This document shows, piece after piece, positions 21,140 to 49,527 of a DNA stretch of 64,000 nt. Where the stretch lies: assembly GCA_948567375.1 (NCBI GenBank), contig OX419758.1, forward strand, positions 36,533,473 through 36,597,472, written 5' to 3'. Origin of the DNA: Lunularia cruciata (taxonomy: Eukaryota; Streptophyta; Marchantiopsida; Lunulariales; Lunulariaceae). A program made the translations under genes and the position numbers. Each line of letters starts with the position of its first letter. Position 1 is the first letter of the stretch. The notes below the pieces were generated by a model. That model was not told the origin of the DNA and made no database searches. It saw nothing but the letters and a program-made list of their open reading frames with translations.

Positions 21140-21292
21140 TTGCACAGATTTGCATCTTGTGTTGCTGTCAATTTCTAGTTGTTTAGACTTGCTTGCATTT
21201 ACTTTCGTAGATCTGCATCTTCGGTTTGCATCGGTCCTGTCCTGAGTGGGTGTGGCCCCTCGTTCTACAACCGGATTCTGCTCTCATTACTC
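21140..21292 (+). mobile_element. Retroposon family copy 1, degenerate 3' end
   Basis: Only the end is recognisable: a decayed hairpin near 21259-21270, then TTCTGCTCTCATTACTC. It is followed at once by the ATATATATTACGCCT target sequence used by copies 2 and 3. The 5' limit is uncertain. Confidence 0.5.
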
Positions 21293-21307
21293 ATATATAT
21301 TACGCCT

Positions 21308-21655
21308 CATGGGACCTCTGGTGTATACAGTGTTCCTACTCGACTCCATCCCACGTTTTTTATTTTTATCGTTCATGCAGTGCTTACTGACAGTCTTTTA
21401 CGTAGCGGTACCTATTTCTCGCTGTTGTTTGCATAGAGTTCTCGATTTCATGGTGGTTTATTAGTCTGTTAGCCATATGTTATTCTCAATTTGTTTCGAT
21501 TATGCCTTTGCTTCAAGTTACATTTGATGCATTCTACCTTATGGATTTCTCACCATTCTAGCACTGTCAATTATGTACATCTTGCTTATCGATCATTTGC
21601 ACCTCATGAGTTCTGGATAACCCGTTCCCAGAACGGCATCTGTTCTCGTATACCT
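21308..21655 (+). mobile_element. Retroposon family copy 2, 5'-truncated, 15-bp TSD
   Basis: This 348-bp copy starts inside the family sequence (as at 28134 onward) and ends with the shared 3' hairpin and CTCGTATACCT. ATATATATTACGCCT occurs at both flanks, 21293-21307 and 21656-21670, as an exact 15-bp direct repeat. This fits a target-site duplication from target-primed insertion. Confidence 0.8.
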
Positions 21656-21670
21656 ATATATATTACGCCT

Positions 21671-22205
21671 TCTGCTTCCCTTAGCTGTTTAGCGTCTCAG
21701 GACTCCAGCGTCCATAGTACTGGTTGTGATATACTTCATATCCGATCCTCTTAGGCTTCGCTCTCGTTACCCTGTTACACTTCGACCCGTTTCTGCAGCC
21801 ACATCTTCTGAGACTTCTTGTTTTGTTCCACTCCTCCATTCCCCAACTAATTCCCTCCCTAGTATTTTCCCTTCGTGCTTTGACTGCTTCCTGCTTCACC
21901 CTCTCGTGTCTACAGTGTTCCTACCCGACTCCAGCCCAGGCTTCATCTTTGTTCACGCACTGCTTACTGGCAGGCTCTTACATCACGTTTCCTATTCCTC
22001 GCCATCGGTTGCATAGCTGCTCTTGATTTCATGTTCTTTACTAGTCTGTTAGCCAGCGGTTATTCTCAATTTGTTTCAATTATGCTTTTGCTGCAGGATA
22101 CATTCTACATTCTACCTTAGGGATTTCACATTACTCTAGCATTGTGATTCATGTACATATTGCATATCGACCTGTTCCCAGAACAACTTCTGTTCTCGTA
22201 TACCA
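21671..22205 (+). mobile_element. Retroposon family copy 3, 5'-truncated, 15-bp TSD
   Basis: This 535-bp copy starts at TCTGCTTCCCTTAGC and ends with a partly deleted hairpin and CTCGTATACCA. Flanks are ATATATATTACGCCT (21656-21670) and ATATATATTATGCCT (22206-22220), one mismatch in 15. It shares its target with copy 2, so two insertions used one site. Confidence 0.75.
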
Positions 22206-22220
22206 ATATATATTATGCCT

Positions 22221-22410
22221 TGCTGTAGGCTTGTTTATCATACTGTTGATCAGGAGTTCTACGTGACTACTTATTTGATGGATATACTGTCTCCTGTGTT
22301 CCCATTGGATTGAATCCCATACTATTCATGTTAGAGCCTATCAGTAGTTCTTTTCCTATAAGCTTGTATACCATACGGTTATCCAGGAGTCCTACTTGAG
22401 TCCTGCATTT
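22221..22410 (+). other. Spacer within the repeat block
   Basis: Non-coding, pyrimidine-rich. The part near 22360-22400 resembles the start of the long copy near 27320 (a phrase reading TATACCATAC followed by GGAGTCCT), so it may be the older sequence into which copy 4 inserted. Confidence 0.45.
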
Positions 22411-22426
22411 ATATATAACCAATAGT

Positions 22427-23302
22427 CTTGGCACTCATGAGTTTTCGAGCAGAAACTCGGGACGAGGAGTACTGACAATTGTTCAACTACTTCGGCACTG
22501 CGTGAGGCACTGATGAAGTCGTTGGTGTTATCGTGGAGGTTTACTATGGCCGCCTTCTGCTTCCTTAAGTTGTTTAGCGTATCCGGACTCCAGTGTCCAT
22601 AGCACTGGGAGTGATATACTTTATCCTGTCCTCTTACGCTCCGCTATAGTTACACTCTTACATTTCTACCCGTTTCTACAGCCATAATCGCGAAATGCCT
22701 GCTACATCCACACATTCCTGTACTATTTCACTCCCTAGTCTTTTCCCTTCGCTCTCTGACTGCTTCCTGCCTCGCTCTCTACTGTTTCCTGTGTTCCTCC
22801 CCCACTCCATCCCACGTTCTTCATCTTCATCTGCGCACTGTATCCTGGTGGGCTCTTATAGCAAGTTTTCTATTCCTCTCGCTCCATCCACGCACTGCAT
22901 CCTGGCGGGCTCTTACAGCACATAGCACGTTTCCTATGCCTCTCGCTTTTGGTTGCATTGCTGCTCTCTGACTTCATTATTTTTTACTGGTGAACTCTTA
23001 CATCAAGCTCTCTAACCCACGCTCGCGTTGGCCTTGCTCTTCTCGATTTCAAGTTCGTTATTGTCCATTAGCAGTACGGTGTTCTCAATTTCTTGCACTT
23101 ATGCCTTTGCTACAGGTTACTTTTTTGCACCTATACTTTTGCTGCAGGTTATTTTAGATGCATTTTACACTAAAGATTTCATACTACACTAGCACTGTAA
23201 TTCATGTAAATGTTGTTTATCGAATATGTGCACTTGTGCACTTGTGCACTTCATGAGTTCTGGATAACCCGTTCCCCGAACGGCTTCTGCTCTCATTTAC
23301 CA
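22427..23302 (+). mobile_element. Retroposon family copy 4, unit-length (876 bp), perfect 16-bp TSD
   Basis: Begins CTTGGCACTCATGAG and ends with hairpin CCGTTCCCCGAACGG and CTCATTTACCA. ATATATAACCAATAGT flanks it exactly at 22411-22426 and 23303-23318. Three other copies (28492, 30031, 34733) also start at about TGGCACTCATGAG, so this may be a genuine 5' end and a unit length of about 870-890 bp. No ORF and no poly(A) tail. Confidence 0.85.
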
Positions 23303-23318
23303 ATATATAACCAATAGT

Positions 23319-24645
23319 GTGTCTAACAAGTATTAGTACTTGTTGGTTTATTTACTGACAAGGGGTCGCACTTTGGCCACTGCACCTCTCCTTCACAGTA
23401 CCCAAGGCCACTCAAAGCACCCAAGGCACTCCTCTCTGTAACCCCCCTCCCCCTTCCGCCCCTTCCTGCCCTTCCTGTTCGCCCCTTCCCCTCTTTGGAT
23501 TATTGTTTTCATTTCACTTTGGTTTGCTACTCGGTCTACTTCACTCTGTGCACTTTCGACCCCCGTTTCTATGGCAAACAATATGTTCTTTCCCTGTACC
23601 ACTGGATTCGCTCCCTACTGTCTTCATTGGGTGTCGAACAACTTCCTCCTTCCCGTGCAGTCTGACTTTGCTCCTTACTGTTTCCTTGTTGATTTCACTC
23701 AGTTAATTTACTACCTTCTTCATTTGTTGCATTATTGAGTGCTTCTATCAGTTTTTATCTGCATTCGATACTAACATTTGTTTCCTTTCAGGCTTTAACC
23801 AGGTATGTCTCGAGCCCCTTGCTTATTCATGTTCATGTTTTCATTTTCTTCATTTGGATGCTGATTTATTTGCATCACATAGTCATTCTGCTTATTATTA
23901 TTGCTACCTATTGTTTGGATTGTATGCTTCAATCGGTACAGCCTTTCCCCTTACCTTGAGCGGCACTGTTGGAAGCAGCCAAGTTTGCCTTGGCACTCAT
24001 GAGTTTTCAAGCGGAACCTCGGTAGGAGGGGTACTGACAATTGCTCAGATACTTTGGCATTGCCTGAGGCACTGATAAAGTCACAGGTTCTTTTGTGAAG
24101 GTTTACTATTGGCCGCCTTGTGCTTCCCTTTGCTGTTTAGTGTCTCAGGACTCAAGCATCCGTAGCGCTTGTTGTGACATACTTTATACCCTGTACTATT
24201 TCGCTTCGCTCTCGTTACCCTGTTACACTTCGATTCTTCCACTCCATTCCCCAGCTAATTCCCTCCCTATTATTTTTCCTTCGCTCTTTGCCTGATTCCT
24301 GGGTTCGACCTCTTGTGTATACAGCATTCCTACCAGACTCCAGCCCACGTTTTTAATTTTTATTGGTGATGCATTGCTTACTGGCAGTCTTTTACATAGC
24401 GTTTCCTATTTCTCGCAGTCGTTTGCCTAGAGTTCTTGATCTCACGGTTGTTTACTAGTCTGTTAGCCATATGTTATTCTCAATTTGTTTCAAGTATGCC
24501 TTTGCTTCAAGTTACCTTTGATGCATTCTACCTTATGGATTTCTCACTATTCTAGAATTGTGAATCATATACATCTTGCTTACTGATCATTTGCACTTCA
24601 TGAGTTCTGGATAACCCTTTCCTAGAATGGCTTCGGTTCTCGTAT
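23319..24645 (+). mobile_element. Retroposon family copy 5, long type
   Basis: Carries the 5' extension upstream of the TGGCACTCATGAG point, including the splice-like cassette (TACTAAC at about 23769, CAG, 11 nt at 23792-23802, GTATGT). It ends with a mutated hairpin (CCTTTCCTAGAATGG) and CTCGTATAC, followed by ATAT and then the solo LTR. No flanking direct repeat was found. Confidence 0.6.
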
Positions 24646-24651
24646 ACATAT

Positions 24652-25052: not shown

Positions 25053-25100
25053 AAACTTTCAAGTCAAGGGAAGTCTCTAAACTAGAGATTAATTAAACTA

Positions 25101-25122
25101 TAATATATATATATATATATAG
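25101..25122. repeat. (TA)n microsatellite
   Basis: A run of TA dinucleotides separates the solo LTR flank from the next retroposon copy. Confidence 0.9.
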
Positions 25123-25124
25123 AT

Positions 25125-25789: not shown

Positions 25790-25794
25790 TATAT

Positions 25795-27161
25795 TGCTCA
25801 CGAGGGTTTCTCCTGCTGGGTTGGGGTTTGATGGGATTTCTCCCGCTGTCCTTTCTTGTTGCAGCATTGACGTTTTTTGCTCCCTGCTCGTGGTTTGCTG
25901 GGGTCTCTCCCACTAGTCCATGCTTGTGAAGGATAGCAAAGTTTTTTTGGCTCCCCTCTTGTCCCTTCCCTTGCAGCGCTGCGCTTTCTTGCGAGGAGGT
26001 TTATTTTGCAGGTGCCTCCCCGAGCAGCGCTGAGTTTTCTAACGAGGATGTTTCTTTCGCTGATTTCACTGCTGTTTATTTCGTTGATGCTTCATGTATC
26101 TCGCTACTTCGGTTTATTTCGTTGGTCCCTTCACGCGCAGCGCTGCGTTTTTCTTACAATGATGTTTGTTTCGCTGATGCTTATCATATCTCACTATTTC
26201 TGAGCTCTGAGCGGCACTGTAGGGGAGCAACTGAGTTTGCCTTGGCACTCATGAGTTTTCGAGCAGAAACTTGGTATGAGGGGTACTGACTCTAGCTCAA
26301 CTACTTCGGCACTGCGTGAGGCACTGATGAAGTCGCATGTGTTTTCATGGAGACGAACTATGGCCGTCTTCTGCTTCCCTCAGCTGTTTGGCTTCTCTGG
26401 ACTCAGGCGTCCATAGCGCTTGCTGTGATATATGGATATCCACGTCCTTGGATGTCTTGCTCGTCTTCCCTCGTTCACTAAGTCGCATGTGTTTTCATGG
26501 AGACGTACTATGGCCGTCTTCTGCTTCCCTCAGCTGTTTGGCTTCTCTGGACTCAGGCGTCCATAGCGCTTGCTGTGATATATGGATATCCACGTCCTTG
26601 GATGCCTTGCTCGTCTTCCCTCGTTCACTGAGCGATTTATCCTTCCTGTGCTCTGTCTCATCCACCTTCTCCGATTATTGTTTCCTGACTCAGCTCTTCC
26701 TTGACCCGCAATATTTTCAGACTATTACTTGTCTCTTGCCACCAGTTCATCTCCATCCTTTTCAGCTGTGCGTTTCTTCCTGGGGTCTTTATTTTTCTAC
26801 TTTTGTGGGAGTACTGTCTCCGTTCCTTTGCAGGCTGCATCTCAACTATACGAGTTGCTATCTAATGGTTTCCACGTGACAGTTATTTTGCGTTTCATTC
26901 GATGATGTTTCTCATATAGATATGCTGGTGTTTCAATATGTTTATTTTGAGTATGCCATTGCTGCAGGTTACCTTCAAGACATTCTAACTTAGGGATTTC
27001 ATATTACTCTAGTCTTGCATGTCACTAACCTTCCGTGCATTCTACCCTCGGGGTTTTATATTCCTAGTGTGGAGTATCATGTACATATGGTTTATTGCTC
27101 ATTTGCACTTCATGAGTTCTGGATAACCCGTTCCCAGAACGGCTTCCGTTCTCGTATACCT
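25795..27161 (+). mobile_element. Retroposon family copy 7, long type
   Basis: Starts in a distinct 5' region with two diverged repeats built around CAGCGCTG (about 26025 and 26139), passes the GGCACTCATGAG point at 26245 and ends with the hairpin and CTCGTATACCT. It holds a 149-bp tandem duplication, listed separately. Confidence 0.55.
26332..26629 (+). repeat. Tandem duplication, 149-bp unit inside copy 7
   Basis: Units 26332-26480 and 26481-26629 begin AGTCGCATGTGTTTTCATGG and are nearly identical. This makes the internally repeated 180-codon open frame at 26337-26879, which is therefore not evidence of a protein. Confidence 0.9.
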
Positions 27162-27186
27162 ATATATATATATATAAAATTCAAAT

Positions 27187-27270: not shown

Positions 27271-27319
27271 ATATAAATATATAAATATAAATAAATAAAT
27301 AAATAAATATTCAACTGTA

Positions 27320-28479
27320 TCCGGAGGCCTGTATACCATACTGTTGTTTGGGAGTCCTTCTTGACTTCTGAATTCATATATATATTGTATACTTCACCTT
27401 CACTTTCATTCACTTCACCTCTGCTTTTCCTGCTTCAGTTGACTTATCCCTTTCCCGTGCAGCGCAGAAGTTTTCTTGCTCCACTCTCGTCTCTCTAGCG
27501 AACCTCTACTTGACTCATTCTCATTGTTGTGTCCTGGACTTTCTCTCTACTAATGAATGTTTGTGATTTCAGGGATCTATCAGGTATGTCTCGATTTCTT
27601 CCCTCATCTTTCTCATGTGGATTCTTTTCTATCTGGACTGATCCTCATTATGCGGTTAAGACTCCAGCGCTTAAGTGCGTGCCTGCACTTTTGCTTGCCC
27701 TTGCTTTCCGCACTTCCACCTCTGTTCTTTTTGACATTCCCATTCCTTTTGAGCGGCACTTTAGGGGAGCAACCAAGTTTGCCTTGGCACTCATGAGTTT
27801 TAGAGCAGAAACTCGGTATGAGGAGTACTGACAATTGCTCAGCTACTTCGGCACTGCGTGAGACACTGATGAAGTCGCAGGTGTTTTTGTGAAGGTTTAG
27901 TATGGCCGCCTTCTGCTTACCCTTTGCTGTTTAGCGTCTCAGGACTCAAGCGTCCATAGCGCTTGTTGCGATATACTTTATATCTTGTCCTTTTTCGCTT
28001 CGCTCTCGTTACCCTGTTACACTTCGACAGGTTTCTGCAGCCACACCATCCTATAGCTCTCGGATTGTTCCACTCCTCCATTCCCCAGCTAATTCCCTTC
28101 CTATTATTTTTCCTTCGCTCTTTGCCTGATTCATGGAACCTCTGGTGTATACAGTGTTCCTACCCGACTCCAGCCCACGTTTTTTATTTTTATCGCTCAT
28201 GCACTGCTTACTGGCAGTCTTTTACGTAGCGGTACCTATTTCTCGCAGTTGTTTGCATAGAGTTCTAGATTTCATGGGGGTTTATTAGTCTGTTAGCCAT
28301 ATGTTATTCTCAATTTGTTTCAATTATGCCTTTGCTTCAAGTTACATTTGATGCATTCTACCTTATGGATTTCTCACTATTCTAGCATTGTCAATTATGT
28401 ACATCTTGCTTATCGATCATTTGCACCTCATGAGTTCTGGATAACCCGTTCCCAGAATGGCATCTGTTCTTGTATACCT
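27320..28479 (+). mobile_element. Retroposon family copy 9, long type
   Basis: Carries the splice-like cassette (CTACTAATG, TTTCAG, 11 nt at 27573-27583, GTATGT), the GGCACTCATGAG point (27785) and the 3' hairpin with a mutated stem (CCGTTCCCAGAATGG), ending TTGTATACCT. Confidence 0.65.
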
Positions 28480-28491
28480 ATATCCAGCTGC

Positions 28492-29362
28492 ACTGGCACT
28501 CATGAGTTTTCGAGCAGAAATTCGGGACGAGGAGTACTGACAATTGTTCAGCTACTTCGGCACTGCGTGAGGCACTGATGAAGTAGTTGGTGTTATCGTG
28601 GAGGTTTACTATGGCCGCCTTCTGCTTCCTTCAGTTGTTTAACATATCCGGACTCCAGTGTCCATAGCGCTGGGAGTGATATACTTTATCCTGTCCTCTT
28701 ACGCCTCGCTCTAGTTACATCTTGCATTTCTACCCGTTTCTGCAGCCATATCCTTCGCGAAATGCCTGCCACATCCACACATTCCTGTACTATTTCACTC
28801 CCTAGTCTTTTCCCTTCGCTCTCTGACTGCTTCCTGCCTCGCTCTCCACTGTTTCCTGTGTTCCTCCCCCACTCCATCCCACGTTCTTCATCTTCATCTA
28901 CGCACTGTATCCTGGTGGGCTCTTACAGCGAGTTTCCTATTCCTCTCGCTTCATCCAAGCACTGCATCCTGGCGGGCTCTTACAGCACATAGCACGTTTC
29001 CTATGCCTCTCGCTTTCGGTTGCATTGCTGCTCTCGACTTCATTACTTTTTAGTGGTGAACTCTTACATCTAGCTTTCTAACCCACGCTCACGTTGGCCT
29101 TGCTGCTCTCGATTTCAAGTTCATTATTGTCCATTGGCAGTACGGTATTCTCAATTTCTTGCACTCATGCCTTTGCTGCAGGTTACTTTTTTGCACTTAT
29201 ACTTTTGCTGCAGGTTATTTTCGATGCATTTTACATTAAAGCTTTCATACTACACTAGCACTGTAATTCAAGTACTTGTTGTTTATCGAATATGCGCACT
29301 TGTGCACTTCATGAGTTCTGGATAACCCGTTCCCAGAACGGCATCTGTTCTCGTATATCTAT
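28492..29362 (+). mobile_element. Retroposon family copy 10, unit-length (871 bp), 12-bp TSD
   Basis: Starts ACTGGCACTCATGAG and ends with the perfect hairpin and CTCGTATATCTAT. ATATCCAGCTGC flanks it at 28480-28491 and 29363-29374. The host sequence continues on the right with TTCCCTCAGC, part of copy 11, so copy 10 inserted at the junction of two older copies. Confidence 0.8.
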
Positions 29363-29374
29363 ATATCCAGCTGC

Positions 29375-30030: not shown

Positions 30031-30923
30031 TGGCACTCCTGAGTTTTCGAGCAGAAACTGGGGACGAGGAGTACTGACAATTGTTCAGCTACTTCGGCAC
30101 TGCGTGAGGCACTGATGAAGTCGTTGGTGTTATCGTGGAGGTTTACTATGGCCGCCTTCTGCTTCCTTCAGTTGTTTAGCTTATCCGGACTCCAGTGTCC
30201 ATAGCACTGGGAGTGATATACTTTACCCTGTCCTCTTACGCTCCGCTATGTTACACTCTTACATTTCTACCCGTTTCTGCTGCCATAATCGCGAAATGCT
30301 TGCTACATCCACACATTCCTGTACTATTTCACTCCCTAAGTCTTTTCCATTCGCTCTCTGACTGCTTCCTGCCTCGCTCTCTATTGTTTCCTGTGTTCCT
30401 CCCCCACTCCATCCCATGTTCTTCATCTTCATCTGCGCACTGTATCCTGGTGGGCTCTTATAGCAAGTTTTCTATTCCTCTCGCTTCATCCACGCACTGC
30501 ATCCTGGCGGGCTCTTACAGCACATAGCACGTTTCCTATGCCTCTCGCTTTTGGTTGCATTGCTGCTCTCTGACTTCATTATTTTTTATTGGTGAACTCT
30601 TACATCAAGCTCTCTAACCCACTCTCGCGTTGGCCTTGCTGCTCTCGATTTAAACGTTGGCGTAGCTGCTCTCGATTTCAAGTTCGTTATTGTCCATTGG
30701 CAGTTCTGTGTTCTCAATTTCTTGCACTTATGCCTTAGCTACAGGTTACTTTTTTGCACCTATACTTTTGCTGCAGTTTATTTTCGATGCATTTTGCATT
30801 CAAGCTTTCATACTACACTAGCACTGTCATTCATGTAAATGTTGTTTATCAAATATGTGCACTTGTGCACTTCATGAGTTCTGGATAACCCGTTCCCCGA
30901 ACGGCTTCTGCTCTCATTTACCA
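30031..30923 (+). mobile_element. Retroposon family copy 12, unit-length (893 bp)
   Basis: Starts TGGCACTCCTGAG directly after (AT)n and ends with hairpin CCGTTCCCCGAACGG and CTCATTTACCA. ATATATTG at 30924-30931 may pair with the end of the left (AT)n run, but this is too simple to prove. It belongs to the same subfamily as copies 4 and 10. Confidence 0.65.
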
Positions 30924-31506: not shown

Positions 31507-31519
31507 ATATATACATATA

Positions 31520-33015
31520 TATAATAATTTTCCCCTAAACTTGAATACTTTCTTGCCTCTTGCCTCCTACAGTGATAAATACTCTGTCTACAGCTCTTTG
31601 AGTTTTCTGCCAAATGCCCATGGCAATTGACACGTGGCCTCTGAAGTAGAGGCCATGGGACACAGGGCCTCACTTGGGCCCTTCACTTCACACGTGGATG
31701 AACTTCCCTCCCCCTTGAGACCCTTCGCGAGATACCCTCATTTTTCAGTCATCTTTTTTGTTTCTCGCACTCATCTTCTGCCCCTTCCTGCCCTTCCTGT
31801 TCTCTCTTAGGATGATTGCCTTCCTTTCACCTTTCATTGTTGCTTGTTCGATTTTACTATATGTTTTTTCAACCCCCGTTTCTAGGGCAAAGGACATGCT
31901 ATTTCCTAGTGGCGTTGGATGCGCTGGAGAAGTGAATTCCTCGAGTACTTCTACTAGTTGTTATTTGCTTTCGTTTTGTTATTTGCTTTCAATACTAACA
32001 TCTGTTTGCTTTCAGGCTTTAACCAGGTATGTCTCGAGGCCCTTTCTTATTCCTGCTCATGTTTTCATTTTAAGAAAATGAAAACATGAGGATTTTGATT
32101 GCTTTACATTACTTAGCCTTTCCGATTCTTAATGTTGCTGCACTTTGTTTGGACTTGAAGCTTCATTCGTAACAGCCTTTCTCCTTACCTTGAGCAACAC
32201 TGTTGAAAGCAATCAAGTTTGCCTTGGCACTCATGAGTTTTCGAGCAGAAACTCGATATGAGGGGTATTGACTCTATCTCAGCTACTTCGGCACTGCGTG
32301 AGGCACTGATGAAGTCACATGTGTTTTCATGGAGACGTACTATGGCGGTCTTCTGCTTCCCTCAGTGGTTTGGTTTCTCTGGACTCAGGCGTCCATAGTG
32401 CTTGCTGTGATATATCGATATCCAGTCCTTGGATGCTTTGCTCGTCTTCCGTCGTTCTCTGAGTGATTTCTACTTCCAGCGCTCTTTCTCCTACACCTTC
32501 CACGACTTTCGTTTCCTGACAAAGATCTTCCTTGCCCCGCGATATATTCTACTTCCCGTGCTCTTTCTCCTACACCTTCCACTATTGTCGTTTCCTGACT
32601 CCGATCCTCCTTGACCCGCGATATTTACAGATTACTTCTTGTCTCTTGATACCAGTTTTTCTCCATCCGTTTAAGTTGGCCGTTTATTCCTGATGTATTT
32701 TTTCTCTACTGATGTGGGAGGTCGGCATCCGCTTCTTTGATGGCTGCCTCTCAAATATGAGTATTGCTATCTATTGGTTTCTCAATGACATTTACTTCGC
32801 CTTTCATTTGCTGATGTTTTTTCTCTATATATGCAGTTGTTCCAATAGGTTTGCTTCGATCATGCCATTGCTGTCGGATACCTTCGATGCATTCTAACTT
32901 AGGGATTTCATACTACTCTAGCGTTGCGTACCATGTACATCTTGCTTAATGATCGTTTGCACCTCATGAGTTCTGGATAACCCGTTCCCAGGACGGCATC
33001 TGTTCTCGTATACCT
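31520..33015 (+). mobile_element. Retroposon family copy 14, long type
   Basis: Carries the cassette (TACTAAC, TTTCAG, 11 nt at 32016-32026, GTATGT), a 7-bp inverted repeat GGCCTCT/AGAGGCC near 31636-31654, the palindrome at 32056-32090, the GGCACTCATGAG point (32226) and the 3' hairpin (CCGTTCCCAGGACGG), ending CTCGTATACCT. Confidence 0.65.
32056..32090. repeat. Perfect 16-bp inverted repeat, 3-base loop
   Basis: Arms 32056-32071 and 32075-32090 are exact reverse complements around AAG. The sister copy near 23825-23850 has only the left arm and then continues with unrelated sequence, so here the left arm has been copied back in inverted form, as a replication template switch would do. Confidence 0.9.
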
Positions 33016-33029
33016 ATATATATGTTTTA

Positions 33030-34388
33030 TAGTTTTTCCCTTAAACTCGTATACCATTTCGTGACTCCTGAAGAGATACATATACACTGCCTACCACTAT
33101 TTGCCATGTGGACTTTGATCATTTGCTTATGGACATGGGGCCTCTGCTCATGGACACATGGACACACCTAGTCCTTCACTTCATATGAGGCTGATTTTGC
33201 TTCCATGCTTTGCACTTTCACGAGATGCACTCACTCTTTGCAGTGCTTTTATTTGCTTCTCTGTTTGCCTTTGTTTCTCCTTTTTGAGTTGCCTAGTCCT
33301 CTCCCGTGTAGCGCTGATGTTTCTTGCTCCCCCCTCGTATCACCCATGCACCTTTGCTTCATTATTTCTCTTTGCTGTGTCCTGGATTTTCTCTCTACTA
33401 ATGCATGTTGTTGATTTCAGGGATCGATCAGGTATGTCTTGTCTTCTTCCCTCTTCTTACTCATGTGGATTCTTTTCTTTCTTGCTTGATACTCATTAAG
33501 CGGTTGAGACTCCTGCGCTTATTTCTGTACCTACACTTCTGCTTGCCCTTTATTTCCACATTTCCATTTCGGTTCTTCGGTTCTTCGGTTCTTTCGACAT
33601 TCCCACTACTTATGAGCGGCACTTTAGGGGAGCAACTGAGTTTGCCTTGGCACTCATGCGTGTTCGAGCAGAAACTCGGTACAAGGGGTACTGACAACTG
33701 GTCAGCTACTTTGGCACTGCATGAGGCACTGATGAAGTCGCAGGTGTTTTCGTGGAGGTTTACTATGGCCGCCTTCTGCTTCCCTTAGCTGTTTAGCGTC
33801 TCTGGACTCAAGCGTCCATAGTGCTGGTTGTGATATACTCTATATCCTGTCCTCCTACGCTTTGCTCTCGTTACCCTTTACACTTCGACCCGTTTTTGCA
33901 GCCACATCATCTGAGAACTCTTGTTTTGTTCCAATCCTCCATTCCCCAGCTAATTCCTTCCCTAGTATTTTCCCCTTTGCTCTTTGACTCCCCTTTGCTC
34001 TTTGACTGCTTCCTGCTTCGCACTCTCGTGTCTACAGTGTTCCTACCCGACTCCAGCCCATGTTCTTCATCTTTGTTCATGCACTGTTTACTGGCGGGTT
34101 CTTCATCTTCGTTCACGCACTGCTTACTGGTGTGCTCTTACATCACATTTCCTATTCCTCGCTATCGTTTGCATAGATGCTCTCGATTTAATGTTCTTTA
34201 CTAGTCTGTTGGCCATTGGTTATGCTCACTTTGTTTCAATTATACTTTTGCTGCAGGTTACATTCGATGCATTCTACCTTAGGGATTTAACACTACTCTA
34301 GCATTGTGATTCATATACATTTTGCTTATCGATCATTTGCACTTCATGAGTTCTGGATAACCCATTCTGGGAACGGCTTCTGTTCTCA
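33030..34388 (+). mobile_element. Retroposon family copy 15, long type
   Basis: Cassette with CTACTAATG, TTTCAG, 11 nt at 33421-33431 and GTATGT; GGCACTCATG point near 33648; 3' end with a changed hairpin (CCATTCTGGGAACGG) and CTCATAT, then (TA)n and (TAAA)n-like sequence. Confidence 0.6.
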
Positions 34389-34430
34389 TATATATATATA
34401 TAAATATAAATATAAATATATATAAATATA

Positions 34431-34700
34431 ACGTTGGCCTTGCTGCTCTCGATTTCAAGTTCGTTATTGTCCATTAGCAGTACCGTGTTCTCAATTTCTT
34501 GCACTTATGCCTTTGCTACAGGTTACTTTTTTGCACCTATACTTTTGCTGCAGGTTATTTTCGATGCATTTTACACTAAAGTTTTCATACTACACTAGCA
34601 CTGTAATTCATGTAAATGTTGTTTATCGAATATGTGCACTTGTGCACTTCATGAGTTCTGGATAACCCGTTCCCAGAACGGCTTCTGCTCTCATTTACCA
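34431..34700 (+). mobile_element. Retroposon family copy 16, 270-bp fragment, long AT-rich TSD
   Basis: Starts ACGTTGGCCTTGCTGC and ends with the perfect hairpin and CTCATTTACCA. The AT-rich left flank (34401-34430) and right flank (34701-34730) are nearly identical over about 25 bases with one indel. Low complexity weakens this, but the order of AAA and TATA blocks agrees on both sides. Confidence 0.7.
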
Positions 34701-34730: not shown

Positions 34731-36601
34731 TGCTTGGCATTCATGAGTTTTCAAGTAGAAACTCGATACGAGGGGTATTGACACTTGCTCAGCTACTTTA
34801 GCACTGCATGAGGCACTGATGAAGTTCCATGTGCTTTCATGGAGGTTTACTATGGTCGCCTTCCGTTTCCCCCAATCATTTAGTGTATCAGGACTGAAGC
34901 ATCCATAGCTCTTGCTGTGATATACTCTTGCTGTGATATACTCTATCTGTCCTCATTTCTCTATATCCAATCCTCTGTTACTCACTTACACTTGTAGTGC
35001 TTTAGACTCTCATGCCAGACGGATAACACCTGTTATGCTTCAATGCTCTTTGTTCTTTTGCAATTTTTAACAGTTGACCGTCTGTAATCTTTAACAGTAT
35101 GTGTGCCTTCTGCATTCGATTCTAATACTCTCTTTCACACTGTGTACCTACACGTGCCATTCCAGACTGTCGGTGTACTGACACCTGGTCTCACCCTGCA
35201 GGCTCCCTCACTTCTTCCGAGACCTACATTCTCACACTTCTCTTACGTTTTTAGTTAGTCAGCTATATTTCTTCCTTTCTGGCTCTTCGCCCTTCATACT
35301 TCTCCCATTTAGAGGTGGCCCACTCCCTTTCCCTGAATCCTTGTTCTTTGGGTATGCCTACACGTGCCATTCCAGACTGTTGGTGTACTGACACCTGGTC
35401 TCACCTGCAGGCTCCCTCACTTCTTCCAAGACCTACATTCTCACACTTCTCTTAGGTTTTTAGTTGGTCAGCTGTATTTCTTCCTTTCAGGCTCTTCGCC
35501 TTTTCATACTTCTCCCATTTGGAGTTGGCTCACTCCCTTTCCCTGAATCCTTGTTGTTTGGATCTCACCCCTAGTATCTTGACTGAACTTCTCCTTTTGA
35601 GACACAGTTTTGGAGAACTGTGCCTTGTTATGCTTGCTTCTCTTCTAATCTGTGTTTTTGTCTCAGGGCTTCACCAGGTACTTGTCGATTAGTCCTACTT
35701 CTTCGATTGCTTACTGCTGATGGTTTCTTCGCACATCCTCAGTCAATTGCCTGATTCATTTCGATTTCTTTGAGCTTTCTGTTCCTCTCGCCGTGGGTTT
35801 ACTCCTTCTTTCCACTTGCTAACTATTTTTGACAGATTCCACTTGCCATCTCCAGTTCACATTGCCCAACAGAAGCCTAAGCCAGTTTTCCTTCTACAAT
35901 ATTCGTTTTCCTTTTGAGGGGCAATTAAGGGAGCAACTGAGTTTGCCTTGGCGCTCATGAGCCTTCAAACCGAAACTTGGTATAAGGAGTACTGGCATTC
36001 GCCACTGAGCTACTTTGGCAACGTTAGGCACTGATGAAGTCGTTTGGGCTTTCGTGGAGGTGTACTATGACCGCCTTTCTGCTTCCCTCTGTGCTTTTGG
36101 TGTTTTAGGATTCATGTGTTCATAGCACATGCTGTGATATAATCAATATCCAATCCTCTAACGCCGTGCTCTACTTCCCTCGTTCTCTGGACGATATCAT
36201 TCTTTCAAATTTTCATACGTTCAGGCTGACTCACGGATCTTCCTCAAATTTCCTTCCCTCGTCCTCTGTCCAATCTCACATTTTCAAGTTTTCATTTGTT
36301 TCGGACTGACTCTAGTTCTTCCTAGACTTACGTTTTTCTAGCTTCTACATGGTTTTTCTACTTTGGTCTATATGAATCTTTTCTTCTGGCTCATCAAGTC
36401 GATTTTATTTCTCTATTGGCACGATTTGTCCTGTTTGCGCTCTGCAAATGCAGGTTATTGGTATATAGGTTTTACTCTTCAAATGTTTCCAGGTTAGGTT
36501 TATTTCTGCTATCGTTCGATCAGAGGTCTGCCATATTGCTTATTTTACACATCTTGCATCTCATTTGCATTTAATGAGTTCTGGATCCCCCCTTCGAGGA
36601 A
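34731..36601 (+). mobile_element. Retroposon family copies 17 (composite, older, long type)
   Basis: Starts at TTGGCATTCATGAG (34733), meets a decayed 3' end at about 34944-34960, then a second long copy with cassette (11 nt at 35667-35677, donor GTACTT), GGCGCTCATGAG near 35951 and an end at 36570-36601 with hairpin CCCTTCGAGGAACGG. More diverged than the copies to its left. Confidence 0.55.
35151..35563 (+). repeat. Tandem duplication, 210-bp unit
   Basis: Units start at 35151 and 35361 with CACGTGCCATTCCAGACTGT and differ at scattered bases and small indels. Confidence 0.9.
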
Positions 36602-36606
36602 CGGCA

Positions 36607-37060
36607 TCTGTCCTCATTTCTTTATATCCAGTCTTCTTAAGCGTCGCTCCTTCTCAGCCTAGAGACCATCCTCTCTCTTCCCCCTTCACTCCAACTCACA
36701 TTTGTTGATTTGTTTCATTGTTCCTATACATGTTTTTTTTTCTGCCAATTTCAGTTCTCTTGATTGGTTTAGCTTTGGCTCGTGGGTCTTCAATTACAGC
36801 TTGTCTATTTCACTACGTGCTTTGCTTAGCGCTGATAGATTACATGATGAATATCTGCTCTCTACTGCTGTTGATCAGAATATGGTGATATGTTGTTTGT
36901 GCTTAACCTTGCATTGAATCTGTTAGATTCTTTACCTCCTTTAGGATTTTATTTCTCATCTCGATTACACTTATCATGTTTAAATTTCAGCCGCACGCCA
37001 GTTGCACGTAAAGAGTTCTGGATCCCCTGTTCTTCAAACGGCTTCTGCTCTCATGTCCGA
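36607..37060 (+). mobile_element. Retroposon family copy 18, old and diverged
   Basis: Short copy ending with imperfect hairpin CTGTTCTTCAAACGG and CTCATGTCCGA, followed by ATATATC. It marks the right edge of the first part of the block. Confidence 0.5.
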
Positions 37061-39297: not shown

Positions 39298-39317
39298 ATA
39301 TACCTGTCAGTAATTAC

Positions 39318-39986
39318 TGACAGTAATCCTGTCCTCTTACGCTCCGCTATAGTTACACTCTTACATTTCTACCCGTTTCTGCAGCCATAATTGCGAAATG
39401 CCTGCTACATCCACACATTCCTGTACTATTTCACTCCCTAGTTTTTTCCCTTCGCTTTCTGATTGCTTCCTGCCTCCCACGTTCTTCATCTTCATCTGCG
39501 CACTGTATCCTGGTGGGCTCTTATAGCAAGTTTTCTATTCCTCTCGCTTCATCCACGCACTGCATCCTGGCGGGCTCTTACAGCACATCGTACGTTTCCT
39601 ATGCCTCTCGCTTTTGGTTGCATTGCTGCTCTCTGACTTCATTATTTTTTATTGGTGAACTCTTACATCAAGCTCTCTAACCCACTCTCGCGTTGGCCTT
39701 GCTGCTCTCGATTTCAACGTTGGCCTTGCTGCCCTCGATTTCAAGTTCGTTATTGTCCATTAGCAGTACTGTGTTCTCAATTTCTTGCACTTATGCCTTT
39801 GCTACAGGTTACTTTTTTGCATCTATACTTTTGCTGCAGGTTATTTTCGACGCATTTTACACTAAAGCTTTCATACTACACTAGCACTGTAATTCATGTA
39901 AATGTTGTTTATCGAATATGTGCACTTGTGCACTTCATGAGTTCTGGATAACCCGTTACCCGAACGGCTTCTGCTCTCATTTACCA
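39318..39986 (+). mobile_element. Retroposon family copy 19, 5'-truncated, 20-bp TSD
   Basis: A 669-bp member of the copy 4/10/12 subfamily inserted in otherwise non-family DNA. ATATACCTGTCAGTAATTAC occurs at 39298-39317 and 39987-40006 as an exact 20-bp direct repeat, and again at 40019-40038. The element ends with hairpin CCGTTACCCGAACGG and CTCATTTACCA. At the 5' junction an inverted copy of the target makes a 20-bp palindrome (39304-39323), as filler from a strand switch. Confidence 0.85.
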
Positions 39987-40838
39987 ATATACCTGTCAGT
40001 AATTACCTATATATACCTATATACCTGTCAGTAATTACACCAGCAGCTGTCGAACCTCTCACTACTTGTATGATACATAAGGGCCTTTGTATATAATACA
40101 TACTCGGTGTCTTGTACAATCCGGATGCTTCCTGCTTACTTGCATGGGATCCATTCGGTTCTACAGCCCCTTTCCCTCACATCACCGCACGTAAACATTG
40201 TATCTCCTTCTCACACTAATCTAATGCTACTTCTTGCCTCTTCCTGTTCTCTAATGATCTTTCTCCTCTCTTCTTAGTATCTTCACGAGCTTTTCTCTTC
40301 TGCATGTATCTCTCTCGCTCAGGCTATTTCACTCATTGCCATCTGATAATTCTGCTCTGTTTGCTTGCGTCTCTACTAATTTGATGCTTTCCTTCAGCTA
40401 TTACCAAGGTGCGTCTCGATTCCTTTCCTTGCTCGTGCTCACGATTATGCATCCTTTCTTTGTATATGGTTTCTATTCTGCAGTTTCTGTGCCCATTCCC
40501 TTCCAATTTCAATCAAATTACGATCGGATTTATCAATACTCCTGCATGGCTTTGCTGGTCTCCAGCAGTTCCTTACTTCGCACTGCTACCATTTTTGAGT
40601 GGCACTTTTGGAAGCAACGGTGTTTGCCTTAGCACTCATGAACTGTTGAACATAAACTCGGTATGAGGGGTACTGGCATCGCCCAGCTCCTTCGGCACTG
40701 CGTTAGGCACTGATGAAGGCGTTTGTGCTTTCGTGGAGGCTTACTATGACCGCCTTCTGCTTCCTTCAGCTGTTTAACGTTCTAAGGCTCATGCGTTCAT
40801 AGCTCATGGTGTGATATACTCTACCCAGTCCTCTTTCG

Positions 40839-40899
40839 TCCTGGATCCAGTCTTGGATCTCCCGTTCCTCAAACGGCTTCTGTACTCAGTTCTCTATAT
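40839..40899 (+). mobile_element. Nested 3'-end fragment, about 61 bp, 14-bp TSD
   Basis: Contains CCGTTCCTCAAACGG and CTTCTGTACTCAGTTCTCT. Flanks CCAGTCCTCTTTCG (40825-40838) and CCAGTCCTCTTACG (40900-40913) differ at one base. The uninterrupted form of this target is seen in other copies. Confidence 0.65.
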
Positions 40900-41624: not shown

Positions 41625-41710
41625 GGTCGCGTCTTGCTTGTTGTTACATGATGTATACTAGTTCTCTGCAGGTGTTACTCATGAGATGTTTCAATTATGG
41701 CTTTACTTCG

Positions 41711-41735
41711 TACAGCTTCTGCTCTCATTTCCCAT
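41711..41735 (+). mobile_element. Minimal 25-bp 3'-end fragment with 14-bp TSD
   Basis: Contains only TACAGCTTCTGCTCTCATTT and CCCAT. Flanks ATGGCTTTACTTCG (41697-41710) and ATGTCTTTACTTCG (41736-41749) differ at one base. Other copies have this target uninterrupted (ATGCCTTTGCTTC). Confidence 0.55.
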
Positions 41736-42187
41736 ATGTCTTTACTTCGGCTTACCTTTGTATTGTTAGTTTCACTTAATTTCCGTTCCTGAGTTGAGAT
41801 TCATTTCGATTTGCACACATTCATGCTTATATTTCATCTGCACTTCATATGCACTTAGTGGGTTCTGGATCCCCCTTCGAAGAACAGCTTCTGCTCTCAT
41901 GTCCCATATGTCTTTACTTCGGTTTCCTTCGTATTGTTAGTTTCAATGAATTTCCATTTCCTTAGTTGCTATTCATTTCGATTTGCACACGTTCATGCTT
42001 ACATTTCATCTGCATTTTCATATGCATGTAGTGGGTTCCGGATCTCCCGTTCTGCGAAAGGCTTCTGTCCTCATTTCCTATTTAGCGTCTCAGTACTCCA
42101 GTGCCCATAGCGCTGGTTGTGATATTATTCATATCCTGTCCTCTTACGTTTTGTTCTCGTTCCTTTTTACGCTTCGACCCATTTCTG

Positions 42188-42435
42188 TGTTAGATAAACA
42201 TCTATATAGTGGAGTGTTTTGTGCCTTGTGATCATACGTTACTTAACTGTTCACATAACTGTTCGTTATGTAACTGTTCAGATGTTAGACTACTATAGTT
42301 AGCTAAATCACGTTAAGTCAGTTACCCAAAACATAACTCTTGCTCTTCTCGAGCTTGATCATATACTTATATAATCCCAGTTGTGGGATTATCTGTTGTT
42401 CAATCAATCACCTACTTACATCATATTTTCGCACA
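42188..42435 (+). mobile_element. 5' LTR of Copia element
   Basis: 248 bp from TGTTAGATAAAC to TTTTCGCACA. Contains a TATA box (ATACTTATATAA, about 42361-42372) and a 9-bp inverted repeat ATAATCCCA/TGGGATTAT just after it. It directly precedes the primer site. No second LTR is found in the window. Confidence 0.85.
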
Positions 42436-42447
42436 TGGTATCAGAGC
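42436..42447 (+). other. Primer binding site of the Copia element
   Basis: TGGTATCAGAGC, the standard Ty1/copia site complementary to the 3' end of plant initiator Met tRNA, immediately after the LTR. Confidence 0.9.
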
Positions 42448-42686
42448 AGTAAGCCTTAGAGTTTCTTCTTTAGCTGCTAGGGGACGCCTTAGCACTCATT
42501 TTCGAAATTATGAGAGGTTTAATTTTTCTTACACACTAGTGTATTTGGAAAAACAAGAATCTCTTGTTCCTCCTCTTAAGGGTTTCTCTTCTCTCAGGAT
42601 CTTGGGAGAGTATTTTCTCTTATATCCTTTGGTAGTTTGGGTTTTGGGAAAGACATTTTCCTCTATCCTCTGTGAGTCAAGTCATT

Positions 42687-45378: not shown

Positions 45379-45399
45379 AATTTTCAGAATGCACCTTAT

Positions 45400-46330
45400 T
45401 ACTATTGTTGTATCTCTCTGCTCTGAATGCACCACTCGTATACTACTAGTTACCACCAACTTATGTCGGACTTCCTCACATTCCACTTTTGTTTTCTATC
45501 CTTTGCCCCCGATTCAGAAACTGCTGTTTCCTCACTTACAGACATTTAACTTCCCCACTCCGATGCACACATTTTCCATTTACTTTCCCGACAGCTAATG
45601 CACTGTCCGCCTCGCGCTTAGTAACTACTTTCTCGTTATTTTTAAGTTGGGTTCGTCGTTCAGTTCCTGCAATATTGACTGCGGTACTACAGGGATAACT
45701 CAGGCACGTTCTCCTGCTCCTCCTATCTTTATGTTTCCATGTTTATGTATCAATGAAAGCTTGCTGTTCCCATCTTTTCATACTTCACCTTGCCTGCTGG
45801 GCTTCCATACTTCATTTTCTTTTCTTATGCATTTTCAATCTTCTACTTACAAGGGCTTTCGGTTACGCCTCCACCCACCCGCGGCGGCTGGCTGCTAAGT
45901 ACCCCACTTGCTGCTAATCTGCTCTCACCCTCTGCCTATCGTACTTACGATCATTTGTCCTCGACCATGAACTGACTGCCCATGATACATGAGCAGCACG
46001 TTTTAGAAGCAACCGAGTATGCCCAGGCACTAATGAGCATGACAGAAACGCGGTATAAGGTTTACCGGCAACTCTACCTAGTTACCTCTGGCACTTCATG
46101 AAGGCGTTATGCTTACGTGCAGACTTACTATCAGAGTCTTGGGTATTAGCTACGTAAATGAGTCTTGCTGCTCCCCTCAACTTCGGGACTCATGTTCTCA
46201 TATATGGTATATGCACATATACAGTCCTTTAGGGTTTCATTTCTCATCTCGATTTGCACATATCATGTTTACACTTCATAATGCGTTCTGGATACCCCGT
46301 TCTTCGAACGGCTTCTGCTCTCATGTCCGA
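45400..46330 (+). mobile_element. Retroposon family copy 21, old long type
   Basis: Cassette present but decayed (TACTACAG, 11 nt at 45693-45703, then GCACGT instead of GT). Passes GGCACTAATGAG near 46025 and ends with perfect hairpin CCGTTCTTCGAACGG and CTCATGTCCGA, then ATATAC. Confidence 0.55.
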
Positions 46331-49300
46331 ATATACAGTCATTCTACAGTCTCCTTCCAAGAACCACCAAGCTGCGTTCCCCACCTATCCCCGCATACGC
46401 TGCGATTTTAGTCACTGTGCTCATGTTCTCGCCTTTGCGCTTCTCCTTCTCCTTAGCATTTTGCTGTCACCGTTTCTTCCTACTCTGCTCTCAACACCTG
46501 TCCACTGCCCGACGGGGTTTATTCACCATCGGTTTTTGTTATTCCCACTTGACTACCAACTTTTCTAGAGAGGTGTTCTGCATTTTCCTTTTCATGAGCT
46601 AACCAGAAACTCGGTGCGAGGGGTACTGGCATTCGCCCAGCTACTTCACCACTTAGTAGACACAGAGAAAGTGCTTCCGTGCAGGCAGTCTTGTTGCTTC
46701 CTTCTTGTGTTCAGTGTTTCATAGAGCATACAGCATATCGTGATATACACTGTCGATTCCTTGTCACGCTTCGAGCTTTCCTCTTTGCACCTTCGTTCTT
46801 GCTCGTTCTTGCTCGTTCTAGAATTCTACCAGACTTCTCACTTTTCTGGTATTGGGTGACAGAAAGCAGACAGCCAGAAAGGAACAATGATTTTCTGTCC
46901 TACTCTCTCGCTTCGCATTGTGGTGGGATGAATGTTTCTCTCTAAATCTTTCATGCGGTCTCGCTGTAGAATGGTTTCTTCACTTTTCATGGGAAGATTG
47001 AGCTTATCAAAGTTGTTTCATGTATCTCCACGTTGCGCACATTCTCATGGGCTTTGATGCAATTCCTAGCTGCTTAGATTCACATGCGTGGAGTTTGCGT
47101 CGGGTCTTCACTGGGTGGTACGAACGGCTTTAGCTCTGTTTTCACATATGCACTCCAAGTTTAACGACTCATGTCAGATTCTTTCTCCATAGCTTTCCGG
47201 AAAGTCTCATACAGGTTCATGAGTTTCTTTTGCGTGGTTGTTATTCTTATCAAAGCAGTAATAAGAGTGGAGCCTGTGCAGAAGATCCATGTTATCCCAT
47301 GAATGCACCTCCCAAAGCAGAAACTATGCTCTTGAACGTGTATTAGTCAGCTCGAGCTCCTTGGTGTTCAAAGCATGTCGAATGACATATGCGTGCGTTT
47401 TGTGCATTCGTTGAATCGGACCAGAGTCAATGTTCAACATTTTGCGTATGCTGAGCAGATGCCAGAACATCATATATTTATCCGTCACTATGTCCGATCA
47501 GACCCATTTCCCGCAGCATTGGTTATTTTGGCTGAAGCCGAAGGTTCCTTGGATACAAGGATAGCATCTGACACACAACTTTTGAACTAATGAATGCGTG
47601 CATCATACACGACTTGTAAAGAGGAGAAAGTGGGGAAGGTCTTCTGTGCAAAATTGAGATTCTTATCTGGGATTTTACGGTTTGGCAGAAACGAAAGCAG
47701 AACGGTTAGTAACACTTTCCCTTTTTTCTTGGACCCCCATGGTAGATAATGTATCCAACATGGTATACTTCAGTCACAATAGCTTTCAGTTCTCGAGAAT
47801 ATTAGGCAACCCCTCAACAAATTCTTGAGATCTGATCTCCCGTAACCGAATCGAAACCCACTCTTAAACCAAAACTAAGTTGACGTTCCACATTTCTGAT
47901 CAAATGCTAGTGGGATCAAGCCGGATGGAAATTCAACTTCACCGAGCACTCCTAAAGGAAAGTCTTTTGGAATCAAACTTCTCAAACTACATCGTAATGA
48001 GATCAGCTCCATCCAAATTCAAAAACTAATCTGAAAAGTAATCGCGATGATTTGAGAGCACATCAGACTGATTTCTAGAATTCACTAGCTTGGGTAGGAT
48101 TTGAACGTAGATTTTAGAAATAGCGATGATTTGGAAGGGCATCAGACTGATTTCTAAAACTTCGCTGGCCTGGGGTTTAAGGTTTGGATGTAGATTTAAA
48201 GATAGATGTAAAGCATAGAGTCCATCGGGGGACTATCACATTATTATGATGGACAAATATGGTGTGGGATCCCATAAATGTGAAGTGAGATGACCAAAGG
48301 AAATAAAGATTTCATTTAGATATTATAGGTGGGAAAATGATCTACATGTCTAAACTGGAAGTTGATTTCTCTCAAATAACTATGTTAACTAAATATATAA
48401 ATGCGAGATTATGCTGCAAATTTCATGCCGATTACATCCCACAAACGCAATATCATAATTTTACTGGAATTTGTGTTCTATGGTATATCTGCTTACCGCA
48501 GGTGATAATCTATACTTTACAACTGTTAAAAAAGGATTTGGAGAAATATGTGTAACATTTTATTGTTATTGACATTGGAAATTAGTAAACTCTCTCACTG
48601 CAGAACTATAGAGGAAACACCCCTACATTGATCCTGTAATTACTCAAAGGTGTAGGTGATCCCATGCTTACAGAACCTGATGTTGCAAACCCATTACATG
48701 TGCATGGAGCGTTTATAGATCCTCTTGTAGTTGCGATATGAAGAACCATACAAGACATAACCGCTGCATTCGTTGCTGTAAGTATTCAACGTTGTAATCA
48801 CTTCTATGCTTACAGAACCTGACTTTGAATCCCAATAGATGTTTCTCTGTGCACAAATCGCTAGTTGTAGGTAGCCAGGAGTCATTGGTTCTTCTTGGAC
48901 CAAAAGGCTACTGTTATCTGAATCCTTAAAATTTTGTGCCTACCTTCGTGCACGACAGCTGTCTTAGGGATTCTAGACCCTGGCAATCAAGGCTCTGGTC
49001 TTGGAGCTTTCAGTACCTCATGGCTAGCTCTCATTGTCATCAACGTGTCCAAACTTTTCTCCTGCCATGAAACACCCTTGGATGCATCCGACCAGGTTAC
49101 AGCTCGAGGTGTTGTTAGGATGTGAAGATTGCCTGTGGGTGGAGAGAAGTCTTTTATATAATCTTTCATTTTGCCTGCGGGAGGAGAGAAGGTATTCGTT
49201 TAATCTTTCGATTTTCTCGATTCGACTCTGATTTCAGAAGCTGACACCCAGTCTGTCAGTATTTTTCTTGGGTCGAACGTCTTCTTGGTGGTACTTCCCA

Positions 49301-49460
49301 ATCTCTTTACAGGGCAACTAGCCAGCTTAGCTTATCTGTTTCGGTCGAGTCCTTGTCTATGACCGAGATTGTACTCAGTTTCACAAACCTTCCTGGTAAT
49401 CCTCGGTAGCGTGAGCATGACCACTTTATGCCCTCCTGGTTACCAACTTATCCCACTACA
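46331..49460. other. Edge of the repeat block and intergenic DNA
   Basis: 46331-47150 holds diverged family sequence (AAACTCGGTGCGAGGGGTAC near 46609; a remnant of the end near 47120). After that the family is not recognisable. A tandem duplication lies at 48044-48206, and a repeated phrase ATGCTTACAGAACCTGA at 48664 and 48808. No gene recognised. Confidence 0.5.
48044..48206. repeat. Tandem duplication, 79-bp unit
   Basis: GCGATGATTT starts both units (48044 and 48123), followed by a shared CATCAGACTGATTTCTA phrase. Moderately diverged. Confidence 0.8.
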
Positions 49461-49470
49461 CAGATCGAAA

Positions 49471-49517
49471 GGTTTGCGAATGTTCTGCGAACGGCTTCTG
49501 CTCTCATTACTCATATG
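49471..49517 (+). mobile_element. Isolated 47-bp 3'-end fragment with 10-bp TSD
   Basis: Contains TTCTGCGAACGG, CTTCTGCTCTCATTACTC and ATATG, lying outside the main block. CAGATCGAAA flanks it exactly at 49461-49470 and 49518-49527. It shows that a very short 3' piece of the family can be inserted alone. Confidence 0.75.
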
Positions 49518-49527
49518 CAGATCGAAA

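Follow-up and report, generated by a model that had tools for sequence, protein, structure and literature searches.

Solo terminal repeats of a probable Chlamys-type Penelope-like element in one-way arrays of the Lunularia cruciata genome

Between 20 and 50 kb of a 64,000-nucleotide stretch of the Lunularia cruciata genome (contig OX419758.1, positions 36,533,473 to 36,597,472, forward strand; hereafter the window) related T-rich sequence lies densely on the + strand, which raises the question of what kind of element produced it and how its copies came to point one way. A sequence-only reading of the window had proposed a retroposon family with a common 3′ end, variable 5′ truncation and target-site duplications (TSDs), inserted through target-primed reverse transcription by an enzyme of the long interspersed nuclear element (LINE) type. 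The observation of such a family is confirmed, and its common 3′ end, 5′ truncation and TSDs of variable length are consistent with apparent target-primed reverse transcription. The window repeats are probably solo, mostly 5′-truncated pseudo-long terminal repeats (pLTRs) of a Chlamys-type Penelope-like element (PLE) that have spread into TATATA sites; copies bearing the open reading frame (ORF), or deleted for it, lie elsewhere.

A 93-nt query from the 3′ end (29270-29362, the terminal part of the copy at 28492-29362) has, counting itself, 23 window matches at E ≤ 0.01, and all 23 are on the + strand, which bears out the earlier count of more than 20 copies converging on one 3′ end; matches at the same threshold to a conserved head of about 200 nt, located about 850 nt 5′ of the 3′ end, are all on the + strand too. 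The 5′ ends fall at many points, as had been described, yet two starts recur. Throughout the genome (565.8 Mb in 74 contigs) exact matches to a 30-mer of the 3′ end number 227 forward and 229 in reverse, a reversed control pattern giving 0 and 0, and a full-copy query returned 3038 first-look candidates, 40 of which were scored. Neighbouring copies less than 10 kb apart have the same orientation in 29 cases and the opposite in one, against 26 and 35 for those more than 100 kb apart (a count over the first 100 of 456 places, all on contigs C1 and C2); the balanced genome counts and the all-+ window together show that orientation is random genome-wide and nearly uniform in local clusters.

The parent element is indicated by loci collected outside the window. 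The ORF-bearing loci L008 and L003 are 92% identical over 1997 columns, from within a reverse transcriptase (RT) through its stop codon and GYGGGGAGCTC..GTTCGAGCCCACC into the intron-like part, head and body of the family; they diverge after TTTACC(A/G)ATATA, where the flanks differ. The full layout of pLTR, ORF and pLTR is found in a copy at C1:21.28 Mb, in which head and 3′ end are followed by TATATATATCCTGC..CAATGGCG, about 1.3 kb on by an endonuclease (EN), linker and RT, and then by the 3′ end and head again; its junctions are found in L017 and L028. The latter two align in a single 620-column block (81%) across TATACC|TATATATATCCTGC...CAATGGCGGGG, and past TATACC such native copies read TATATATATCC..ATGGCGGGG. 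Judged by eye against L003 and L008, L028 extends on as far as the RT region's end and TTTTTCC|CGGAGGCC; it is an ORF-deleted derivative showing both pLTR borders. Given the L008/L003 continuity, the C1 layout and the L028 borders, the family is the stretch between one ORF and the next, and is almost certainly the terminal repeat of an RT-bearing element with a GIY-YIG domain.

An RT-like segment was first seen among the ORFs of L003. In DNA neighbouring the loci, GIY-YIG (PF01541) was detected in an ORF segment of L039 at 24.1 bits (cut-off 22.6), and a linker and then the RT come after it on the family's strand; the C1 copy has EN at 2825-3097 and then RT at 4349-5320, with frames broken between them. 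The RT displays the motifs FDFTTLYTKI and GIPMGTPCAVF, with RYVDDL in L040 and a C14 copy. As a CxC motif, PCSC precedes GHVITASL in the C14 copy and recurs, frame-shifted, in the C1 copy, and a C2 copy has lost one C; CNC or CDC is seen by eye at the corresponding position of the relatives P0025, P0031 and P0007. Direct search recovered six related proteins, the best at 42% to a hypothetical protein of the fern Ceratopteris, and a profile search 179; relatives, one of them labelled Mesvir1, share the D-F-T-T-L-Y-T and GIPMGT boxes with the RT, and RVT_1 was found below cut-off in three of five and then in six of ten further ones. ORF pieces occur near family copies at four of 38 family-query loci (L002, L003, L008, L017), on the same strand in all four, a count that leaves out EN-query matches starting in translated 3′-end sequence. 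The LINE-type enzyme of the earlier reading is not supported: the ORF with the family's 3′ end encodes a GIY-YIG endonuclease upstream of an RT whose relatives have its motifs and CxC too, and the family is the pLTR of that element.

Chlamys-type PLEs, of which Craig et al. are said to have given an account in MBE in 2021, reportedly carry an N-terminal GIY-YIG, CxC and a C-terminal RT, target microsatellites and have abundant non-autonomous copies; the Chlamys elements of Chlamydomonas are said to target CA repeats, whereas the target here is TATATA. The present element resembles them in its N-terminal GIY-YIG, CxC, C-terminal RT, pLTRs and tandem copies, and the clade name is very probably correct. 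It is unlike them in its 1.2-1.5 kb pLTR with intron-like sequence, its two preferred 5′ starts, and solo pLTRs far commoner than ORF pieces in the collected loci.

Several results count against this assignment. The assignment, which would put the RT in the PLE/telomerase branch, rests on domain order and motifs; the RT by itself has no Pfam or PDB match, and NCBIfam gave sub-threshold matches only. GIY-YIG was found in none of 15 relatives scanned, so that the N-terminal EN is seen only in this genome's copies, and every ORF copy read is broken. The window, whose copies had rightly been described as lacking an ORF, contains no PLE ORF pieces; two window matches to the EN query start in translated 3′-end sequence contained in that query. 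An ATG 32 nt past TATACC is a doubtful start of the ORF: in L017 and L028 its frame closes within about 25 codons, and in the C1 copy the EN-coding part begins about 1.3 kb further on. A donor-like GTAAGTT lies about 140 nt past TATACC (L017 reverse complement, L028) and acceptor-like TTTACAG or TCTACAG before the EN part (reverse complements of L017, ~2850, and L039, ~3686), which makes it probable that an intron interrupts the ORF ahead of the endonuclease.

The pLTR is about 1.2-1.5 kb long; it starts near TTTTCC-CGGAGGCC just past the end of the RT, and its 3′ border, upstream of the ORF, is TATACC. Complete units begin near TTTTCC-CGGAGGCCTGTATACC, with GAATTCATATATATACTG about 55 nt in, and in most of 30 loci inspected TATATAT or AATATAT follows TATACC; the 17 matches to the 5′ motif, four of them from overlapping loci, represent 13 distinct places. 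The intron-like stretch features TACTAAC or CTAAT, a pyrimidine tract, CAG, an 11-nt stretch (GGATCTATCAG, GCTTTAACCAG or similar) and then GTATGTCTCGA; sequences resembling a branch point and 3′ and 5′ splice sites are, as read from the letters, retained in seven diverged window units, which include homologous pairs. On its 3′ side the order is GGCACTTTAGGGGAGCAACTGAGTTTGCC, the head TTGGCACTCATGAG..., body and 3′ end, the head being well kept in diverged units.

Covariation supporting a head structure is weak: five of 39 pairs show two-sided change, a level reached by 18 of 500 shuffles, and the covariation score was reached by 55 of 500. The head as an HDV-like (hepatitis delta virus) or hammerhead ribozyme (CTGATGA) was rejected, having no support apart from the recurrent 5′ end. 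At gathering thresholds Rfam gave no match in the window, hence no hammerhead ribozyme in a pLTR there, and the segment 26150-31600 gave one sub-threshold snoRNA match (E 8.3). Hammerheads are typical of canonical EN+ PLEs and are not known from Chlamys; if they are indeed lacking there, none is required here. Of the 3′ hairpin by which the family had been recognized, what stands is that the dominant subfamily is able to fold one, but it lacks covariation; as a conserved RNA structure it was rejected (RNAalifold −0.5 kcal/mol; two explicit hairpins with covariation no higher than in shuffles).

Each of the nine TSDs claimed for the window was scored against 200 random placements. Five are equalled by none of the placements, one of these consisting of A/T only, and four are weaker (3, 3, 7 and 8 of 200), among them those claimed at 40839-40899 (7) and 41711-41735 (3). 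The repeat of copy 21671-22205, one of the five, is its neighbour's target with mismatches, and the match also extends into element sequence. In the collected sequence 87 TACC-bearing 3′ ends were found, ends without TACC within 30 nt being excluded, and 85 had sufficient upstream DNA; with the repeat required to abut the 3′ end and a limit of 1.6 kb, a TSD score of at least 10 was obtained for 24/85 ends against 23/337 control pairings, and one of at least 7 for 40/85 against 48/337. Earlier tests with a 1.5 kb limit were weaker (8/30 at a score of at least 16 against 3.8%; 11/30 at at least 10 against 12.8%) and are superseded. TSD lengths range from 10 to at least 24 bp.

Among the 40 copies with a TSD score of at least 7, seven start within 14 nt at the head, where a uniform spread would place about half a copy, two start at CGGAGG and the rest are scattered; the 5′ ends were placed against one unaltered copy, and one of the seven head starts has an A/T-only repeat. 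A second start site, or self-cleavage of the RNA at the head, would explain the recurrent 5′ end. The hairpin-like GCGGGGAGCTCYAGTTCGAGCCCACC (L028 ~2010-2048; L008 reverse complement ~446-475) follows the RT stop, ahead of the pLTR start, and includes the B-box-like AGTTCGAGCCC; in L028 TTTTTCC, the start point of solo copies, follows this hairpin and may bear on the origin of the 5′ ends.

Distinct targets with a TSD score of at least 8 number 33, and 25 of them are family sequence in family orientation: 3′ ends (ACC|TATATA), GAATTC|ATATATACTG, TTCTC|TATATATGCAG, ATACTT|TATATCC and others. The eight "non-family" targets include at least two (L018 and window 21654) that resemble decayed 3′ ends. 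TSD-flanked insertions are also found inside older units at internal TATATA sites, for example in L025, L027 and L039, and the solo pLTR at 22427-23302 is inserted in the TATATATA that belongs to the diverged 5′ motif (22362-22417) of an older element. In L021, L025 and L028 about 13 nt of the 3′ end alone (GTTCTCGTATACC) is inserted in TATATATACTGTATACTTC with repeats on both sides, an extreme 5′ truncation. A pyrimidine occupies position −2 relative to the tract in 27/33 targets against 84/152 background tracts; in the non-family targets it does so in 3/8, and C stands at −1 in 6/8 against 35/152 in the background.

A tentative scheme can be outlined for such insertions. The element's protein would nick the strand opposite a TATATA tract, and we infer that the nicked ...ATATATA-3′OH end would pair with UAUAUAU in the RNA after TATACC, on the ORF side of the pLTR; native copies read UAUAUAUAUCC past TATACC, allowing such pairing. 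Reverse transcription would begin inside the RNA at TATACC and run 5′ through the pLTR, giving solo, 5′-truncated pLTRs, and second-strand repair would leave TSDs of the lengths given above. Both the 3′ junction thus formed (..ACC|TATATA) and internal pLTR sites would offer fresh targets, so that later copies insert into and behind earlier ones; the orientation may be set by a nick motif with a direction, or by RNA-target pairing that extends past TATATA. Expected RNAs would have 5′ ends at TTTTCC|CGGAGG and CTTGGCAC, or would run through TATACCUAUAUAU into the ORF. The mobilization of PLEs is poorly understood (PMC11167929). In PAc (Poseidon of Anolis) reverse transcription starts inside the RNA near the pLTR-ORF junction, next to which the protein cleaves AT-rich DNA (PMC11167929). 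The solo copies seen here stop at the border between the pLTR and the ORF side, and such a scheme could account for them. Taken whole (an intron-bearing 1.2-1.5 kb pLTR as the main mobile unit, internal UAUAUAU priming, self-seeding one-way arrays, and the head marking where self-cleavage or a second start creates RNA 5′ ends), the proposal is possible but more doubtful than the identity of the element. If it is true, every new copy restores a target that faces the same way, arrays lengthen in one orientation, and PLE targeting in plants would be self-seeding, not random.

The scheme is weakened at several points. TSDs are enriched over controls, but 45/85 ends have none at a score of at least 7, for which the 1.6 kb limit, nested copies and decay are in part responsible. 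Because the loci came from family queries, nested targets are over-represented among them. A nick motif consisting strictly of pyrimidine-TATATA was rejected, as it fails at −2 in the eight non-family targets; no nick motif is thus established, and the odds of the mechanism are lowered. PAc is similar in internal initiation near the pLTR-ORF junction, AT-rich targets and tandem loci, however its EN is C-terminal, its initiation lies 111-118 nt inside the ORF at an AC-rich stem-loop, and its initiation site is not homologous to the cut DNA (PMC11167929), unlike the pairing proposed here; the present copies end before the ORF, beside UAUAUAU.

Head-to-tail arrays could instead be laid down in one insertion event, by template jumping, in which the RT, having reached the 5′ end of an RNA, passes to the 3′ end of another. 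Tandem units of PLEs have been described (PMC11167929), and jumping would yield a single orientation with no directional nick motif, none being established; even so it is unlikely, because TSD copies recur between successive window units (21293, 21656 and ~22205) and because of the TSD-flanked insertions inside older units (L025, L027, L039), both of which favor successive insertion.

That the family is akin to short interspersed elements (SINEs), moved by an ordinary LINE of L1 or RTE type recognizing its 3′ end with the PLE ORFs as bystanders, would accommodate the single 3′ end, the 5′ truncation and TSDs that start with an A/T primer-like tract, but is very improbable: the family is continuous from RT ORF to 3′ end in two copies and stands on both sides of the GIY-YIG/RT ORF. 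Nor does the window contain a tRNA gene or a SINE head derived from tRNA, 7SL or 5S (no hits with ARAGORN or Rfam), and no LINE with this end turned up in the family-query loci, a statement with no genome-wide RT search behind it. About as improbable is a non-coding RNA gene family with intron and microexon, tandemly duplicated and spread mainly through unequal crossing-over; the uniform orientation in clusters, the head and splice-like signals kept in diverged units and the weak covariation of the head would suit it, while single units flanked by TSDs, the several 5′ starts, a dispersal in hundreds of copies that face either way and the continuity with the RT ORF argue against it. Solo LTRs of an LTR retrotransposon, or pieces like terminal-repeat retrotransposons in miniature (TRIMs), share the repeat-ORF-repeat layout and solo repeats, but truncation at many 5′ points, GIY-YIG in the ORF and TSDs of such length, where LTR elements leave few, fixed bp, make them hardly conceivable. 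The TSDs argue against a Helitron, and miniature inverted-repeat transposable elements (MITEs) and other DNA transposons were dismissed because none of 18 inverted pairs of at least 25 nt in the window, which the earlier reading had named as a refuting sign if terminal, encloses a single copy.

The earlier statement that this is not a described family holds for the particular pLTR family, which is new as far as the literature was searched, and fails for its kind. Solo pLTRs, TSDs and retained introns are known from other PLEs: the Adineta vaga Penelope families (PMC3846280) have these, the intron retention being putative in the present family, and are also alike in TATATATA in pLTRs and an ORF-side tail, but their pLTRs are about 200 bp, often inverted and of low copy number. 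According to PMC9033089, which cites Craig et al. 2021 for PLEs, these elements are patchy in plants, with EN(-) forms in Selaginella and conifers and Dryad in conifers; those are land-plant PLEs as well, but either have no EN or have one of Penelope/Poseidon type. Three Chlamys-type families are given for Ectocarpus in PMC12477816. A limited search on Penelope in liverworts and bryophytes found no title or abstract describing such a family, which is no proof of absence, and one liverwort genome paper leaves Penelope unmentioned. Hundreds of dispersed copies of the pLTR end provide natural in vivo evidence on internal initiation, which was reported in vitro for one lizard element, and with 25/33 supported targets being the family's own TATATA sites the head-to-tail piling of PLE copies becomes testable. 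As the mobile unit has no ORF, annotations could list such repeats as "unknown" or SINE.

Table 1. Family copies and related features in the window, all on the + strand
Feature	Position	Details
5′-truncated solo pLTR (21308-21655) with flanking TSDs	21293..21670	15/15 nt TSD ATATATATTACGCCT; 0/200 random placements as good
Second truncated pLTR	21671..22219	same TATATATATTACGCC target, head-to-tail behind first
Solo pLTR	22411..23318	starts at head CTTGGCACTC (22427); 16/16 TSD ATATATAACCAATAGT; 0/200
Long pLTR unit	23453..24646	intron-like 5′ part; head 23991; 3′ end 24646
Microexon-like 11-nt GCTTTAACCAG	23792..23802	between TACTAAC..TTTCAG and GTATGTCTCGA; retained-intron signature; putative, from sequence only
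Long pLTR unit	26208..27163	head 26243; 3′ end 27163
Near full-length pLTR	27322..28481	5′ motif CGGAGGCC 27322-27376; microexon-like 27573-27583; head 27785; TATACC end
Head-start solo pLTR	28492..29361	13-bp TSD TATATCCAGCTGC; weaker, 3/200
Head-start solo pLTR	30031..30921	target (AT)n
Long pLTR unit	31510..33017	microexon-like site ~31995; head 32225; TATACC end
Long pLTR unit	33018..34397	directly behind 31510..33017 unit, same orientation; head 33648
5′-truncated pLTR	34431..34700	flanking direct repeats 23 nt, purely A/T; 0/200
Head-start copy, then diverged long unit	34735..36615	head start 34735; second head 35949; 3′ end 36566-36615
5′-truncated pLTR (copy 39318-39986)	39298..40006	20/20 TSD ATATACCTGTCAGTAATTAC; 0/200
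Diverged unit	40593..40890	head 40632; 3′ end 40854-40887
Highly diverged unit	45990..46330	head remnant; 3′ end 46272-46322
About 40 bp of 3′ end alone	49461..49527	10-bp repeat CAGATCGAAA, 8/200; weak 3′-end match, E 0.62

The intron-like part of one diverged pLTR unit contains a 205-nt tandem duplicate (35147-35351 and 35357-35561, 94% identical). A Ty1/copia-like element at about 42190-45380 (+; gag_pre-integrase, rve) apparently lies inside a pLTR copy at 42081-42187; in it, TGGTATCAGAGCAG at 42439 is presumably the primer site. Upstream of the arrays, at 12723-15641 (+), is a trehalose-6-phosphate synthase/phosphatase-like gene in three ORF pieces (Glyco_transf_20, Trehalose_PPase).

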